Shown here in pieces: positions 4,608-48,293 of a stretch of 64,000 nucleotides of DNA. Position numbers and translations under genes: made by a program. The notes below the pieces were generated by a model. The model was not told the DNA's origin, did not search any database, and worked only from the letters and a program-made list of their open reading frames with translations. The stretch lies in the NCBI GenBank assembly GCA_018266835.1, contig JAFDZP010000004.1:1-64000 (forward strand). Reading direction: 5' to 3'. This DNA is from Bacteroidota bacterium (GTDB lineage: Bacteria; Bacteroidota; Ignavibacteria; Tepidaquicellales; Tepidaquicellaceae). Position 1 is the stretch's first letter. Each line of letters begins with the position of its first letter.

Positions 4608-5312
4608 GATATTGTTAATCCTTGTTTTTAATAGTTTTACATCGTTATCTATACGAAGTATAAATAAGGTACTCATTGTGAGTGAGAATTTCAAGGGGGA
4701 AAACCACAGCTAATACCACTCAAATTTAAAATTGTAAAAAGTCAGGAAAAAGTCGGATTCTTTTTACATTAAATTCAACATTAATTGTCACATTATTGTT
4801 ACATTTTGTAATCCGGTATTGTTTTTTCAATATCGATAATTTTTATTTTCTTAAATTTGATGGGTTTTTGATGGATTTCTGCAAAATAAGGCAGACATTT
4901 TTAAATCCGCCACAAAAACTCTAAAACACAAAAATAAAAGTAACATAATTGTAACATTTTTAAATCCTCAGTCTATTCAATTTAAATTTTACAAAAAGTC
5001 GGATTCTTTTAATTTCAGATTTTAGATTTCAAATTGTAACAAAAAAGTAACATTTTTTCTAAACCATTCAATATTTATAAAAGTTGGAAAAAAGTCCTAT
5101 TTCTTATTCAAATGAATTCCGGATATCGCAATTCCAGAGTTATTATTCAAATCTATTCATCTTCATTTTGCCAAAAATCCTTAAGCATAAATTAACAATT
5201 ATATTTTAACAAGTAAAGAAGATGTAACCTATACCTACTAATAGGTAAATATAATAAAGATGGTATTGACTGATTTGAAGTTTTAGAACTGGTTAAGAAA
5301 ACAAACTAACCG
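4608..5312. promoter_or_regulatory. 705-bp AT-rich gene-free region with 11-bp-phased repeat dimers (region A)
   Basis: No coding potential is visible. It contains AGTCAGG/AGTCGG at 4740 and 4751; GTCACA/GTTACA at 4787 and 4798; TGATGG twice at 4858 and 4869; GTAACA twice at 4940 and 4951; a single AGTCGG at 4997; GTAACA twice at 5036 and 5047; and AGTTGG/AGTCC at 5082 and 5093. Every dimer is spaced 11 bp. A CCTAT/ATAGG dyad follows at 5228-5245. The same set recurs in region B (31591-31970). On the minus strand this is the upstream region of rpmE2. Confidence 0.7.
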
Positions 5313-30871: not shown

Positions 30872-31552
30872 TTAATTGCTCAGCATATAAACTATAATGT
30901 TGGTACCCATCTTAAATGACTCTTCCTTTTTTTCCGGCGGGTCGTTATGCTCCTTTGTATCTGCCCATCCGTCAGAAATATTTGTTTCATATGTATAGTA
31001 CATGCAGAGCCTTCCGTTTTTATAAATTCCGAATCCCTGCGCAGGCTTGCCGTCATGCTCGTGGATTTTCGGAAGTCCGTTAGGGAATTTAAACTGTGAA
31101 TTGTAAATCGGATGAGAGAAAGGAAGCTCTTTCATTTCCTCGTTAGAAAAAACTTTTTTTATCTCTCGCCTGAACGCCTCGTCCATTCCGTAGTCATCAT
31201 CTGCATATAAAAATCCGCCGCTCTCACAATACTTTCTTAAACGCGCAGCTTCATTATCAGAAAAGGAAATATTTCCGTGTCCTGTAATTAAAATAAACGG
31301 GTAGTTAAAGATATCATCGGAGGCAATATCGACTGAATAGAACTTAGGTTCATCAACATCTACTGTTGTATTCTTTTTCAGATAGTCCATCATGTTTATT
31401 TCTGCAGATGGGTCGTTATACCAGTCACCCCCGCCTGAGTATTTCAGACGCGCAATTTTAAACGGCGAAGAATTTTTATTTACGCCGTCTGTCTGCGCAA
31501 AAATATTTGTACCTACTAGTAGTAATAATATTATACTTGCAAAAATTTTCAT
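30872..31552 (-). CDS. Exported DUF4159 protein
   Basis: A 226-residue protein with a signal peptide (FASIILLLLVGTNIFAQ). The body is a DUF4159 domain: FKIARLKYSGGGDWYNDPS, PFILITGHGNISFSD, LRKYCESGGFLYADDD and a late HPIYNSQF. The fold is related to class-I glutamine amidotransferase/ThuA-like domains, but no catalytic cysteine is obvious. Function unknown. The frame extends to 31588, but the start at 31552 gives a proper signal peptide. Repeat region B begins about 40 bases upstream. Confidence 0.82.
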   Translation of the reverse strand: MKIFASIILLLLVGTNIFAQTDGVNKNSSPFKIARLKYSGGGDWYNDPSAEINMMDYLKKNTTVDVDEPKFYSVDIASDDIFNYPFILITGHGNISFSDNEAARLRKYCESGGFLYADDDYGMDEAFRREIKKVFSNEEMKELPFSHPIYNSQFKFPNGLPKIHEHDGKPAQGFGIYKNGRLCMYYTYETNISDGWADTKEHNDPPEKKEESFKMGTNIIVYMLSN

Positions 31553-31590
31553 ATTAAATTTTACTTCTTCATTAATAATTTGTTTCATTT

Positions 31591-31970
31591 GTAAAAAAGT
31601 CGGGAAATAGTCGGATTTTATTTTGTTATAATTACTCTATTATATATTGCAACATTATTGTCACATTTTAATTTCAAATTGTTCAAATGATGGATTTTTG
31701 ACGGATTTTTCTTTCGGCGCTCAACTCAGTGTTTTTCGGAATTCTTAAAAAAAGTAACATTATTGTCACATTTTGATTTCACATTGTTCAAATGATGGAT
31801 TTTTGACGAATTCTTCATTTGTGGCTCAACTCAACGTTTTTCGGAATCCTAAAAAAGTAACATTATTGTCACATTTTAATTTCTGTAACTCATAACTCAT
31901 AATTCTCAAAGATACTCATTCCATAATTTCTTATCAAACAAGTTCTCCCTATTCCTTCTAATAGGTAAAT
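31591..31970. promoter_or_regulatory. Region B: 11-bp-phased repeat dimers and CCTATT/AATAGG dyad
   Basis: This is the non-coding gap (31553-32026) between the DUF4159 gene and the ABC operon. It holds AGTCGG twice at 31598 and 31609; GCAACA/GTCACA at 31649 and 31660; TGATGG/TGACGG at 31688 and 31699; GTAACA/GTCACA at 31754 and 31765; TGATGG/TGACGA at 31793 and 31804; and GTAACA/GTCACA at 31857 and 31868. All are spaced 11 bp. The dyad CCTATT/AATAGG follows at 31948-31965, 61 bases before the ABC start. Order and motifs match region A. Confidence 0.75.
31651..31883. repeat. Tandem repeat, about 104 bp x 2.2
   Basis: Unit 1 starts at 31651, unit 2 at 31756 and a partial third at 31859 (spacings 105 and 103). 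Each full unit carries the GTNACA dimer, the TGAYGG dimer, GCTCAACTCA and GTTTTTCGGAAT. There are scattered substitutions but no spacers, so it is not a CRISPR array. Confidence 0.9.
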
Positions 31971-32026
31971 TTTAGTGAATTCCTTTTTGCAAATGATTTG
32001 TATAAATTACATTACAATTTTTATTT

Positions 32027-32692
32027 ATGCTGAAGATTCAGAATCTAAGAAAAACGTTTAAAAATGCCGATGCAGAGGTTTCTGATGTGATTAACATACC
32101 GGATTTTTCGTTACAGGAAAATTTTCAGCTTGCTGTTTCGGGCAAAAGCGGCTCAGGCAAGAGCACGTTTTTAAATCTTATTGCAGGAATAATTTCTCAG
32201 GATAATGGCGAGATATTTTTCAACGATGAAAAAATTTCTTCCCTATCTGAATCAAAGCGCGATGCCTTCCGCTCAAAAAATATCGGATACATTTTCCAGA
32301 CATTCAACTTACTGCAGGGATTTACAGCGATAGAAAATGTTATGCTAGGAATGATGTTTGCTAACAATCACGACAGAAATAAAGCAGAAGTTCTTTTAAA
32401 TAAAGTCGGACTTGCAAAAAAGATGAACAATAAGCCCTCTGAGTTATCAGTCGGCGAGCAGCAGCGTGTAGCAATTGCCCGCGCAGTTGCTAATTCACCT
32501 AAACTCATTTTAGCAGATGAACCCACTGCAAACCTTGATGCAAAGAATGGCGAGCTTGCCATCGACCTTATAAAAAATATCTGCGAAGAAAATAAAATCT
32601 CTTTGCTGCTTGTTTCACATGAAGCCGATATAATAAATAAGTTTGAGAATAAAATTAATTTTGAAGATATAAATAAGACGGCAACCATATGA
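32027..32692 (+). CDS. ABC transporter ATP-binding protein (LolD/MacB type)
   Basis: A 221-residue ATPase. Walker A GKSGSGKST, Q-loop FQTFNL, signature LSVGEQQR (S-V-G-E in place of the canonical LSGGQ start) and Walker B LILADEPTANLD are all present. It resembles LolD/MacB/FtsE ATPases that power FtsX-like permeases without moving substrate through the membrane in the usual way. Its stop overlaps the start of the permease gene (ATGA). It is the first gene of a four-gene cluster whose make-up resembles Zur-controlled zinc operons of Pseudomonas and Vibrio. Confidence 0.92.
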   Translation: MLKIQNLRKTFKNADAEVSDVINIPDFSLQENFQLAVSGKSGSGKSTFLNLIAGIISQDNGEIFFNDEKISSLSESKRDAFRSKNIGYIFQTFNLLQGFTAIENVMLGMMFANNHDRNKAEVLLNKVGLAKKMNNKPSELSVGEQQRVAIARAVANSPKLILADEPTANLDAKNGELAIDLIKNICEENKISLLLVSHEADIINKFENKINFEDINKTATI

Positions 32693-45860: not shown

Positions 45861-48293
45861 TTGGCAAAGCAAAACAGTTTTAAATCAATATATTTCACAG
45901 GAATTTTCCTCACTGCACTAAGTACTCTTCTATTAGAATTTACTCTTACCCGAATATTATCCGTCTCGCTCTGGTATCACTTTGCCTTCATGGTTATAAG
46001 TGTTGCGCTGCTTGGCTTTGGTGTAAGCGGAGTATTTTTATCCGTCAATGAGAAAATAAAAAAAATAAATACCGATAAGCTGCTTACCTGGCTTTCAATG
46101 CTGTTCGGTATTTCCACACTCGCTTCATTTGCAATTATAAATCAGATTCCGTTTGATCCGTTCAGTTTACTCACTGATAAAATTCAGTTCTTATATTTAC
46201 CGATATATTATTTACTCATAACTATTCCGTTTTTCTTTTCAGGATTAATAATCTCAATCCTACTTTCATACTTTAAGAATCAAATTTCAAAATTATATTT
46301 CTTTGATTTAATCGGCGCAGGTGCAGCATGTTTTGCATTCGTTATCTTTGTTCCTATGTTTGGCGGTAACGGAACTATTGTAATTATATCAGCTCTGGCT
46401 TTTGTGAATGCAATAGTTTTCAGTTATAAAGAGTACAAAGTACTATCAATGATTGCTTTTGTATTGGGAGCGTTGAGCCTTACTTTTTTAATGAACGTAA
46501 ACTCAAGCCTTCCGATTAACTCTTCTCCAAATAAAATCTACGGAAATTATATTAAACAGAGACCTGACCTTAATCTTTTCTCTGGATGGAATATTTTTTC
46601 CAAAATAGATGTAATGAAAGAAGAAGAAGCACAGGAAGACGGATATGATATCGCACTTGCAATTATTGATGACGGAAATGCAACTACTAATATACCTAAC
46701 GTTAAGAAATTCCCGTTGGAGAGCAAACCTGCAGATGCATCTAATCTTGCATTTGCTCCAAAGGATACTGTTAACAATGTGTTTATAGTCGGCTCTGCAG
46801 GCGGGGGAGAGATTTTATCGAGCTTATATAATAATGCAAAGAATGTTACGGCAGTTGAGATAAACGGAATACTGAACGATTTGATCTCTCAGAAGATGTC
46901 TTACTGGACAGGTCCGCTTGTAAAAAATAATCCTAAAGTGAATCTGATTACAGATGATGCAAGAAATGTAATCACTAACAGCAAAGATAAGTTTGACGTA
47001 ATAATTTCTGCACATACAATCTCAGCATCCGCTGTATCAAGCGGAGCGATGAGTATGGTTGAAAATTATATTTTAACCAAAGAAGCAGTAGATGAGTATA
47101 TAAATCATTTAAGTAACAGCGGAGTGTTGTATGTTTCAAGACCTGAAACTCAGATGCCTAAGCTGATTACCACTCTGAAAAAATCTATAACGGGAATTAC
47201 GGACGGTAAAGATAACGGTAAGAACGATATAATTGTATTCAGAAGACCTCCGAATGATTTTGAAACCGGAAAAAGTTTTCTTGCAGGTGTGTTGTTCAAG
47301 AAGAACGGATTTACACCTGAAGAAGTAATAAAAATTAAAAACGAAGCTGCAAAGCTGAGCCTTGATGTAGACTATGACCCCGTATCAAAACAGGATGGCT
47401 ATTATAAGCAGTTAATTGAATCAGACAATATTGATAACGAGATTAGCAATGCCAAGCTGAACATTACTCCCGCAACCGATGATAAACCTTTCTTCGATAA
47501 AAATATCGGCTTCTCAAATTTAACATTTGACGGAATAAAAGAAACATTTTCACAGGATGATAAGGCAATCCTTGCTTTAAAAGATAAGCCTGTTGCAGAA
47601 ACTACTTTGCTTGCAATTTTAGTGCAGACAGTTTTAGTTTCGTTCGTGCTTATACTTTTACCGCTCAGAATTTTCAGCAAGAAGAAAGTAAACGTTAAAG
47701 ATAAAAACATTCAGCCTGAAAAACCTTTCGACAGAAAATTTTTAATTTACTTTGCATGTCTTGGTTTTGGTTATATAATGCTTCAGATATGTATGATACA
47801 GAAATTTACGCTTCTGCTCGGGCAGCCTGTATTTACTCTACTTACAGTTGTATCCACAATGTTAGTTGCTTCGGGAATCGGAAGTTTTTATTCAACAAAA
47901 TTATTCGCAAACAAAAAAACAATTTTCATAGTTATAGCAGTATATGCAGTTGCGCTGGGATTATTAAATCCCATTTTATTCAAAGCGTTTGCAAGCTATG
48001 ACCTGTCAATCAGAATTATAATATCAGTAATACTTATTTTTCCATTAGGATTTTTTATGGGTATGCCATTTCCCACGGGCTTGGGATTGATAAACGATGA
48101 GCAGAAAAAATTTATTCCTCTTGCATGGGGAGTGAACGGTTTCTTTTCAGTCATAGGCACAGTATGCGCAATGATACTTGCCATGACTATCGGCTTTAAA
48201 TTTGTGTTTATTCTATCGGGAATAATTTATCTTCTGGCAATGATGCTCATAAGCAAAAAGTTTAATAAGGAACATGAATTGAAAACGCTTTAA
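45861..48293 (+). CDS. Membrane-bound spermidine-synthase-like protein
   Basis: An 810-residue protein starting at TTG. Residues about 10-225 hold seven membrane helices (opening FTGIFLTALSTLLLEFTLTR). About 300-450 is a spermine/spermidine-synthase-like Rossmann domain (VFIVGSAGGGEILSSL, AVEINGILNDL, VNLITDDARNVI). From about 590 to the end lie further helices (FPLGFFMGMPFPTGLGL). Such proteins are widespread; the reaction of the membrane-fused type is not established, and polyamine synthesis is only one possibility. Confidence 0.85.
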   Translation: MAKQNSFKSIYFTGIFLTALSTLLLEFTLTRILSVSLWYHFAFMVISVALLGFGVSGVFLSVNEKIKKINTDKLLTWLSMLFGISTLASFAIINQIPFDPFSLLTDKIQFLYLPIYYLLITIPFFFSGLIISILLSYFKNQISKLYFFDLIGAGAACFAFVIFVPMFGGNGTIVIISALAFVNAIVFSYKEYKVLSMIAFVLGALSLTFLMNVNSSLPINSSPNKIYGNYIKQRPDLNLFSGWNIFSKIDVMKEEEAQEDGYDIALAIIDDGNATTNIPNVKKFPLESKPADASNLAFAPKDTVNNVFIVGSAGGGEILSSLYNNAKNVTAVEINGILNDLISQKMSYWTGPLVKNNPKVNLITDDARNVITNSKDKFDVIISAHTISASAVSSGAMSMVENYILTKEAVDEYINHLSNSGVLYVSRPETQMPKLITTLKKSITGITDGKDNGKNDIIVFRRPPNDFETGKSFLAGVLFKKNGFTPEEVIKIKNEAAKLSLDVDYDPVSKQDGYYKQLIESDNIDNEISNAKLNITPATDDKPFFDKNIGFSNLTFDGIKETFSQDDKAILALKDKPVAETTLLAILVQTVLVSFVLILLPLRIFSKKKVNVKDKNIQPEKPFDRKFLIYFACLGFGYIMLQICMIQKFTLLLGQPVFTLLTVVSTMLVASGIGSFYSTKLFANKKTIFIVIAVYAVALGLLNPILFKAFASYDLSIRIIISVILIFPLGFFMGMPFPTGLGLINDEQKKFIPLAWGVNGFFSVIGTVCAMILAMTIGFKFVFILSGIIYLLAMMLISKKFNKEHELKTL

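Follow-up and report, generated by a model that had tools for sequence, protein, structure and literature searches.

Region B, i.e. the gap at positions 31598-31965 between a DUF4159 gene and an ABC transporter ATPase gene, is likely to be a gene-control device. It belongs to a family of 83 arrays of short double boxes, and we favour, at a probability of roughly 0.4, the interpretation that these arrays represent a promoter-operator cassette, dispersed and under selection, with boxes that are bound head-to-tail by DNA-binding regulators. The window (the whole stretch of DNA that was analysed, 64,000 nucleotides in length) corresponds to bases 1-64000 of contig 4 in a genome of 4.0 Mb and eight contigs. 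The bacterium is probably a member of the Ignavibacteria, a class deduced from the nearest named matches to the DUF4159 protein, most of which come from Ignavibacteria metagenome bins. Region B contains one S, three A and two D dimers in addition to a dyad, each dimer being composed of two hexamers with a five-base spacer (11-base pitch), and its features are as follows:

30872-31588, minus strand: DUF4159 gene (PF13709), left neighbour of region B
31598-31619, plus strand: S box, AGTCGGGAAATAGTCGGATTTT, AGTCGG N5 AGTCGG dimer with 0 mismatches to the S pattern
31649-31669, plus strand: A box 1, GCAACA N5 GTCACA (left half GCAACA), pattern match
31651-31883, plus strand: 105-bp tandem duplication within region B, 2.2 copies, holding A and D boxes
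31688-31709, plus strand: D box 1, TGATGG N5 TGACGG, pattern match
31754-31774, plus strand: A box 2, GTAACA N5 GTCACA, pattern match
31793-31814, plus strand: D box 2, TGATGG N5 TGACGA, pattern match
31857-31877, plus strand: A box 3, GTAACA N5 GTCACA, pattern match
31907-31914, minus strand: predicted -7 box, TATCTTTG, directed leftward into the boxes (TAnnTT at the matching dyad offset, as for 55 of 61 dyads near arrays)
31935-31938, minus strand: predicted -33 box, TTTG, 20 bases from the -7 box
31948-31965, no strand: 18-bp dyad Y, CCTATTCCTTCTAATAGG, upstream of the predicted promoter
31978-32009, plus strand: 32-bp block before the ABC gene, identical in the sister species
32027-32692, plus strand: ABC transporter ATPase gene (PF00005), right neighbour of region B

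The combination TTTG-N20-TATCTTTG in region B is the window's sole minus-strand match to TTTG-N19/20-TAnnTTTG, its TTTG lying one base closer to the dyad than in the family consensus. On the plus strand of the window there is likewise one match only, at 46332. The true start of the DUF4159 gene is probably at 31552, which gives a signal peptide-like N terminus.

Genome-wide searches at up to three mismatches located the A, S and D patterns at 119, 90 and 70 places, respectively, against 4, 0 and 0 for the reversed-pattern controls, and the dyad pattern at 73 places against 4, the patterns having been built from the very genome in which they were counted. The stretches analysed around these places (80 merged blocks amounting to 676 kb, window included) were grouped into the 83 arrays, which carry 294 boxes at one to ten each, with 17 single-box arrays. 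The 281 typed dimers consist of direct 6-bp half-sites at an 11-bp pitch, and an exact-repeat peak at lag 11 is present in both species of the genus. The hexamers form one network, linking GTCGGG/A, GTCGCA, GTCACA, GTAACA and GACGGA. Sixty arrays have at least two boxes at up to two mismatches, and 225 of their 226 boxes agree in strand, the exception being a near-palindromic A box in region A that is readable on the majority strand too. The dyad is similarly ordered: at up to three mismatches 58 of 60 dyads lie on the 3' side of the boxes, with one before and one inside them, and at up to four mismatches a dyad is present in 66 of the 83 arrays (on the 3' side in 64) and missing from 17. Four dyad-less arrays display a shortened CCTATTAGTAGG core on the dyad side, such cores numbering seven in all versus three for the reversed control; furthermore, 12 of the 73 dyads are isolated, with no box within 700 bp.

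Within the arrays, D boxes are often located 49-50 bp past an A or S box, even with unlike bases between, and this interval often holds an inverted repeat such as CAGTATTGTTTTTACAATACTG. Helical phasing between boxes returned p-values of 0.007, 0.3 and 0.06 for periods of 10, 10.5 and 11, respectively, and, as to the replication strand, a weak link to local GC skew was noted (p=0.02). A coding origin of the arrays was rejected, as box distances are even modulo 3 (68:64:63) and the longest open stretches on the two strands are 51 and 57 codons versus 44 for shuffles. A phage origin was equally discarded, viral contigs yielding two with one A match each and none with an S match. G+C-rich palindromic repeats of other families are found between boxes (L043, L051, L061 and others), for example CTGACAGG...CCTGTCAG and runs of GGAGGGGG.

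The block to the left of the dyad, viewed in box orientation, is conserved for either direction of the dyad (39 same, 22 opposite). Read leftward, it consists of TTT, 20 bases and TATWTT, and in 37 of 61 cases the base at the expected start is G. TAnnTT stands at a near-fixed distance from 55 of 61 dyads (six being without it), TTT is present at -33 in 39 and missing in 22, and the two occur together at 35 of 61 dyads as against 26 of the 22,753 remaining positions of the stretches concerned, a background that excludes the aligned dyad-block positions. This arrangement agrees with the Bacteroides promoter consensus of -33 TTTG and -7 TAnnTTTG, as given in PMC7366714 and PMC2483708. Full boxes are rarer across the family (TTTG in 16/61, TAnnTTTG in 13/61), and region B has both. 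In the upstream regions of genes without arrays, TTG-N19/20-TAnnTT is commoner on the sense strand (23/157) than on the antisense strand (7/157) and so looks like an ordinary promoter form of this genome. Relative to a start position derived from the consensus, the region B dyad would lie approximately 46 to 63 bases upstream, and we infer from these sequence features that the dyad-linked promoter would be active. A role of the dyad as an RNA hairpin or terminator was assessed and rejected: its eight flank pairs display no clear covariation (p=0.03 for pair 1, 0.075 for pair 7 and at least 0.39 for the others), and a run of at least four T residues follows it in 30 of 61 cases rightward and 22 of 61 leftward. 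The palindrome itself folds, at a mean of -7.1 versus -3.5 kcal/mol for shuffles.

Among the genomes searched, the cassette is restricted to one genus. Of 44 genomes in the order, two have A boxes (up to one mismatch), both belonging to the same genus, and the dyad stands out in these two only among 30 genomes, with 155 and 62 matches as opposed to 0 to 10 in the others (both strands counted). The A-pattern matches of the sister species (G001) are nearly all GTAACA N5 GTAACA. Twenty of its loci were fetched by the A pattern, and a reading of the resulting table indicates that ten have neighbours matching an array-bearing gap here, seven of them on both sides; the comparison was made with array-bearing stretches only, and the other ten loci therefore do not equate to absences. 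In the reverse test of three gaps, the cassette was present in the sister species at the region B and lexA gaps and absent at the seryl-tRNA synthetase (SerRS) gap. The region B cassette sits between the same two genes in both species, and its alignment reveals conservation in the left leader and in the dyad zone, separated by a middle part that aligns poorly, with boxes that persist among spacers that are diverged or unalignable. The leftmost box retains its position, albeit as an S box here and an A-like dimer in the sister species.

Twenty-two sister-species loci were examined, of which eight end in the dyad described above, 12 in another and two in neither. TAnnTT is present at the same offset in all eight loci with this dyad, and TTT in six. 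The second dyad class (CCATAATAAATTATGG-like) is accompanied by TTT-N20-TAnnTT reading into the boxes in 11 of 12 cases, a count that is descriptive, as the same loci had served to define this dyad by eye. The CCATAATAAATTATGG-like dyad overlaps the predicted -7 box (L124, L125, L127, L128, L130 and L131).

An earlier note on this DNA had drawn attention to a second region of the window, region A, as carrying the same motifs in the same order as region B. Its features are as follows, with S-like remnants near 4998 and 5082 in addition:

4740-5056, plus strand: boxes of region A, namely S at 4740, A at 4787, D at 4858, A at 4940 and A at 5036
5228-5245, no strand: dyad of region A, CCTATACCTACTAATAGG, adjoined by TTTA-N19-TAATTTAT, leftward

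The shared set was borne out, both regions having AGTCGG, GTNACA and TGAYGG dimers at an 11-bp pitch and, in B, the 18-bp dyad thereafter. Their order agrees in part: the first occurrences of S, A, D and dyad follow the same succession, and the orders diverge past the fourth box. Alignment of A with B against shuffled sequences, the check proposed in the earlier note, gave a local score of 58 versus a mean of 25.8 (SD 3.1) for 500 dinucleotide shuffles, the maximum of which was 38, so that none of the 500 reached 58. Motif sharing is nevertheless no evidence of a special link between A and B, because the 83 arrays form a family. Ranked against 60 other arrays (each with at least two boxes and below 1 kb), B is 26th for A and A is 13th for B, which speaks against the two being a duplicated pair. 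Of the alternatives offered, a regulatory cassette or a duplicated control region, the former is supported by the single polarity, the dyad-promoter spacing and the orthologous gaps, and the latter is contradicted by the ranks. The S-A-D opening is found in A and B only among the 83 arrays and is read as chance, box order being variable throughout. The L31 gene of region A has a best sister-species match of 48% identity.

The note had further suggested that region B serves either the DUF4159 gene or the ABC operon, and each side retains some support: the predicted promoter by the dyad faces the DUF4159 gene, and the identical 32-bp block, which may be the ABC gene's own promoter, adjoins the latter. 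Region B could act on both neighbours, and the firing direction of the predicted promoter favours DUF4159. Across the 66 arrays with a dyad, the flanking genes (in box orientation) are arranged as (-,+) in 25, (-,-) in 20, (+,+) in 17 and (+,-) in four. In tandem gaps, array direction is unbiased toward the gene that it would drive (20 versus 17), and the left genes have their own promoter form near the start in 11 of 56 cases in sense and five in antisense orientation, compared to 23 of 157 for other genes. A simple model in which each array is the leader of one gene fails because tandem direction is unbiased and the left genes possess such promoter forms at about the usual rate. Motif-bearing gaps are less often convergent than other gaps (8/103 versus 48/252, p=0.01), a comparison that rests on simple ORF calls. 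Of 31 neighbours scanned, 27 have Pfam matches, with no single pathway evident by eye, and cassettes adjoin core genes including those for LexA, citrate synthase, trigger factor and seryl-tRNA synthetase. At the array upstream of lexA (L065:3434-5560), an extra gene, similar to one beyond, separates the array from the dyad; boxes and dyad are adjacent at the lexA locus of the sister species (L267). Gene capture between array and dyad was considered for lexA and one other locus with neighbour-like genes and was dismissed by eye in favour of tandem gene duplication.

The promoter-operator interpretation combines what is observed at region B, i.e. boxes of a single polarity, a dyad at promoter-like spacing and retention at the orthologous gap of the sister species, with a proposed mode of action. 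The 18-bp dyad keeps a near-fixed distance to a predicted promoter of Bacteroidota type, which would fire into one to ten same-strand double boxes, and the dyad would bind a dimeric regulator just upstream of -33. The boxes would act on DNA, winged-helix (OmpR/PhoB-type) regulators being the likely occupants in a head-to-tail arrangement that gates transcription through them. A transcript started at region B would cross the six boxes leftward and enter DUF4159, and for arrays whose left gene faces the other way the transcript would be non-coding. This reading is favoured because direct repeats of six-five-six bases with AT-rich spacers have the geometry of OmpR/PhoB-family sites. It is weakened because OmpR-type regulators (PF00486) are few and unexpanded, with two here, two in the sister species and one to four in 16 other genomes; an expansion in the genus was sought and none was found. 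Furthermore, several box flavours per array suit one specific protein poorly, and the strictness of box polarity counts against it as well: in our judgement DNA operators seldom keep one polarity across long distances, a feature that suits RNA or descent from one copy equally. Incomplete cassettes (dyads without TAnnTT, without TTT or without a nearby box, and arrays without a dyad) speak against it too, as does the unbiased array direction in tandem gaps.

It is possible, albeit rather unlikely, that the arrays instead function at the RNA level, as a small untranslated RNA (stand-alone or leader) in which the boxes are oriented RNA motifs, e.g. a multi-site sponge for an RNA-binding protein. 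Whatever their distance, the boxes do keep to a single strand with respect to the promoter form, each of the two dyad classes of the sister species is accompanied by a promoter form that reads into the boxes, array direction is independent of tandem neighbours and box spacing is non-coding. Against this, an Rfam search over the window and ten loci returned one tRNA each in the window and L049 and nothing in the arrays, and no common terminator was seen by eye at the far end of 27 arrays. The independence from tandem gene direction would also suit a family of dispersed repeats or mobile elements, whereby one ancestral cassette was copied into gaps and grew by local duplication, its polarity reflecting descent only. 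We regard this as unlikely, and slightly more so than an RNA device. It would account for the tandem duplication within region B, for other repeats being embedded in arrays, for the array that occupies the SerRS gap here and not in the sister species, and for arrays being known from one genus of the order; no structure was seen at the far ends, however, positions are shared with the sister species (10/20 loci, and the B and lexA gaps), and region B has kept its boxes and promoter zone among diverged spacers.

Least probable, and in our estimation very improbable, is that region B and its relatives control the rightward gene only, the boxes being an oriented activator array toward that gene. 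In 42 of the 66 arrays that have a dyad, the right neighbour faces away from it, the promoter form between dyad and gene is rightward in 15 of 40 and leftward in 7 of 40, and the sister species has the same 32 bp, letter for letter, ahead of the ABC gene; yet 24 of the 66 arrays are without a rightward gene, and the conserved promoter block faces the opposite way.

The promoter-operator interpretation finds its closest relatives in OmpR/PhoB-family sites. KdpE half-sites are TTTATA and TTTACA five bases apart (PMC3264566), and ArcA repeats lie 11 bp apart, often as three to five (PMC3798270). The KdpE, ArcA and PhoB boxes share with the present arrays direct 6-bp half-sites, a 5-bp AT-rich spacer and an 11-bp pitch, and sometimes occur several per region. 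The present arrays differ from them in having interchangeable flavours, up to ten widely spaced double boxes and one polarity, and in mostly ending at a dyad-linked promoter form in a genome that encodes few such regulators. With the Bacteroidota housekeeping promoter (-33 TTTG, -7 TAnnTTTG) they share boxes and spacing, in full at region B and in part across the family; in the family the G of -33 is often absent, and a dyad stands near-fixed just upstream, as a regulated promoter would have. REP and MITE-like elements are dispersed intergenic repeats with many copies, a narrow host range and variable presence. The cassettes resemble them in all these respects, being intergenic, numerous, narrow in host range and variably present, but have no single repeated sequence, and at region B the boxes and promoter zone are kept where spacers differ. 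In the paper library searched, Ignavibacteria in combination with both intergenic and direct repeats, with both repetitive and noncoding DNA, or with promoter motifs retrieved no report.

A broader and rather doubtful proposition is that the arrays constitute an undescribed class of dispersed transcription units, in which a dyad-controlled promoter gives rise to an untranslated RNA with oriented double boxes at an 11-nt pitch, the hexamers being swappable in place between species such that geometry and direction are conserved, and not letters. Were the cassettes indeed control devices, one genus would have distributed about 80 copies of a single such cassette among its genes, core genes included, and rewired them by in-place change of box type, which would amount to an enhancer-like turnover in bacteria; the cassettes would also offer promoters and operators that are open to direct testing.

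Outside the genus, five other genera were examined at their lexA and SerRS loci, where neither a box of type A, S or D (up to three mismatches) nor a dyad (up to two) was found; upstream of lexA in G009, two AGTCGG hexamers 15 bases apart form a lookalike without the 11-bp pitch. The lag-11 peak is absent from samples of G014, G008, G011, G002 and G007 (36.8 to 120 kb each). In G025 the lag-11 rate is 20.8 per 10,000, with three short clusters seen, and another genus of the family contains a long tandem repeat with a 9-bp period (L236:7084-7350).
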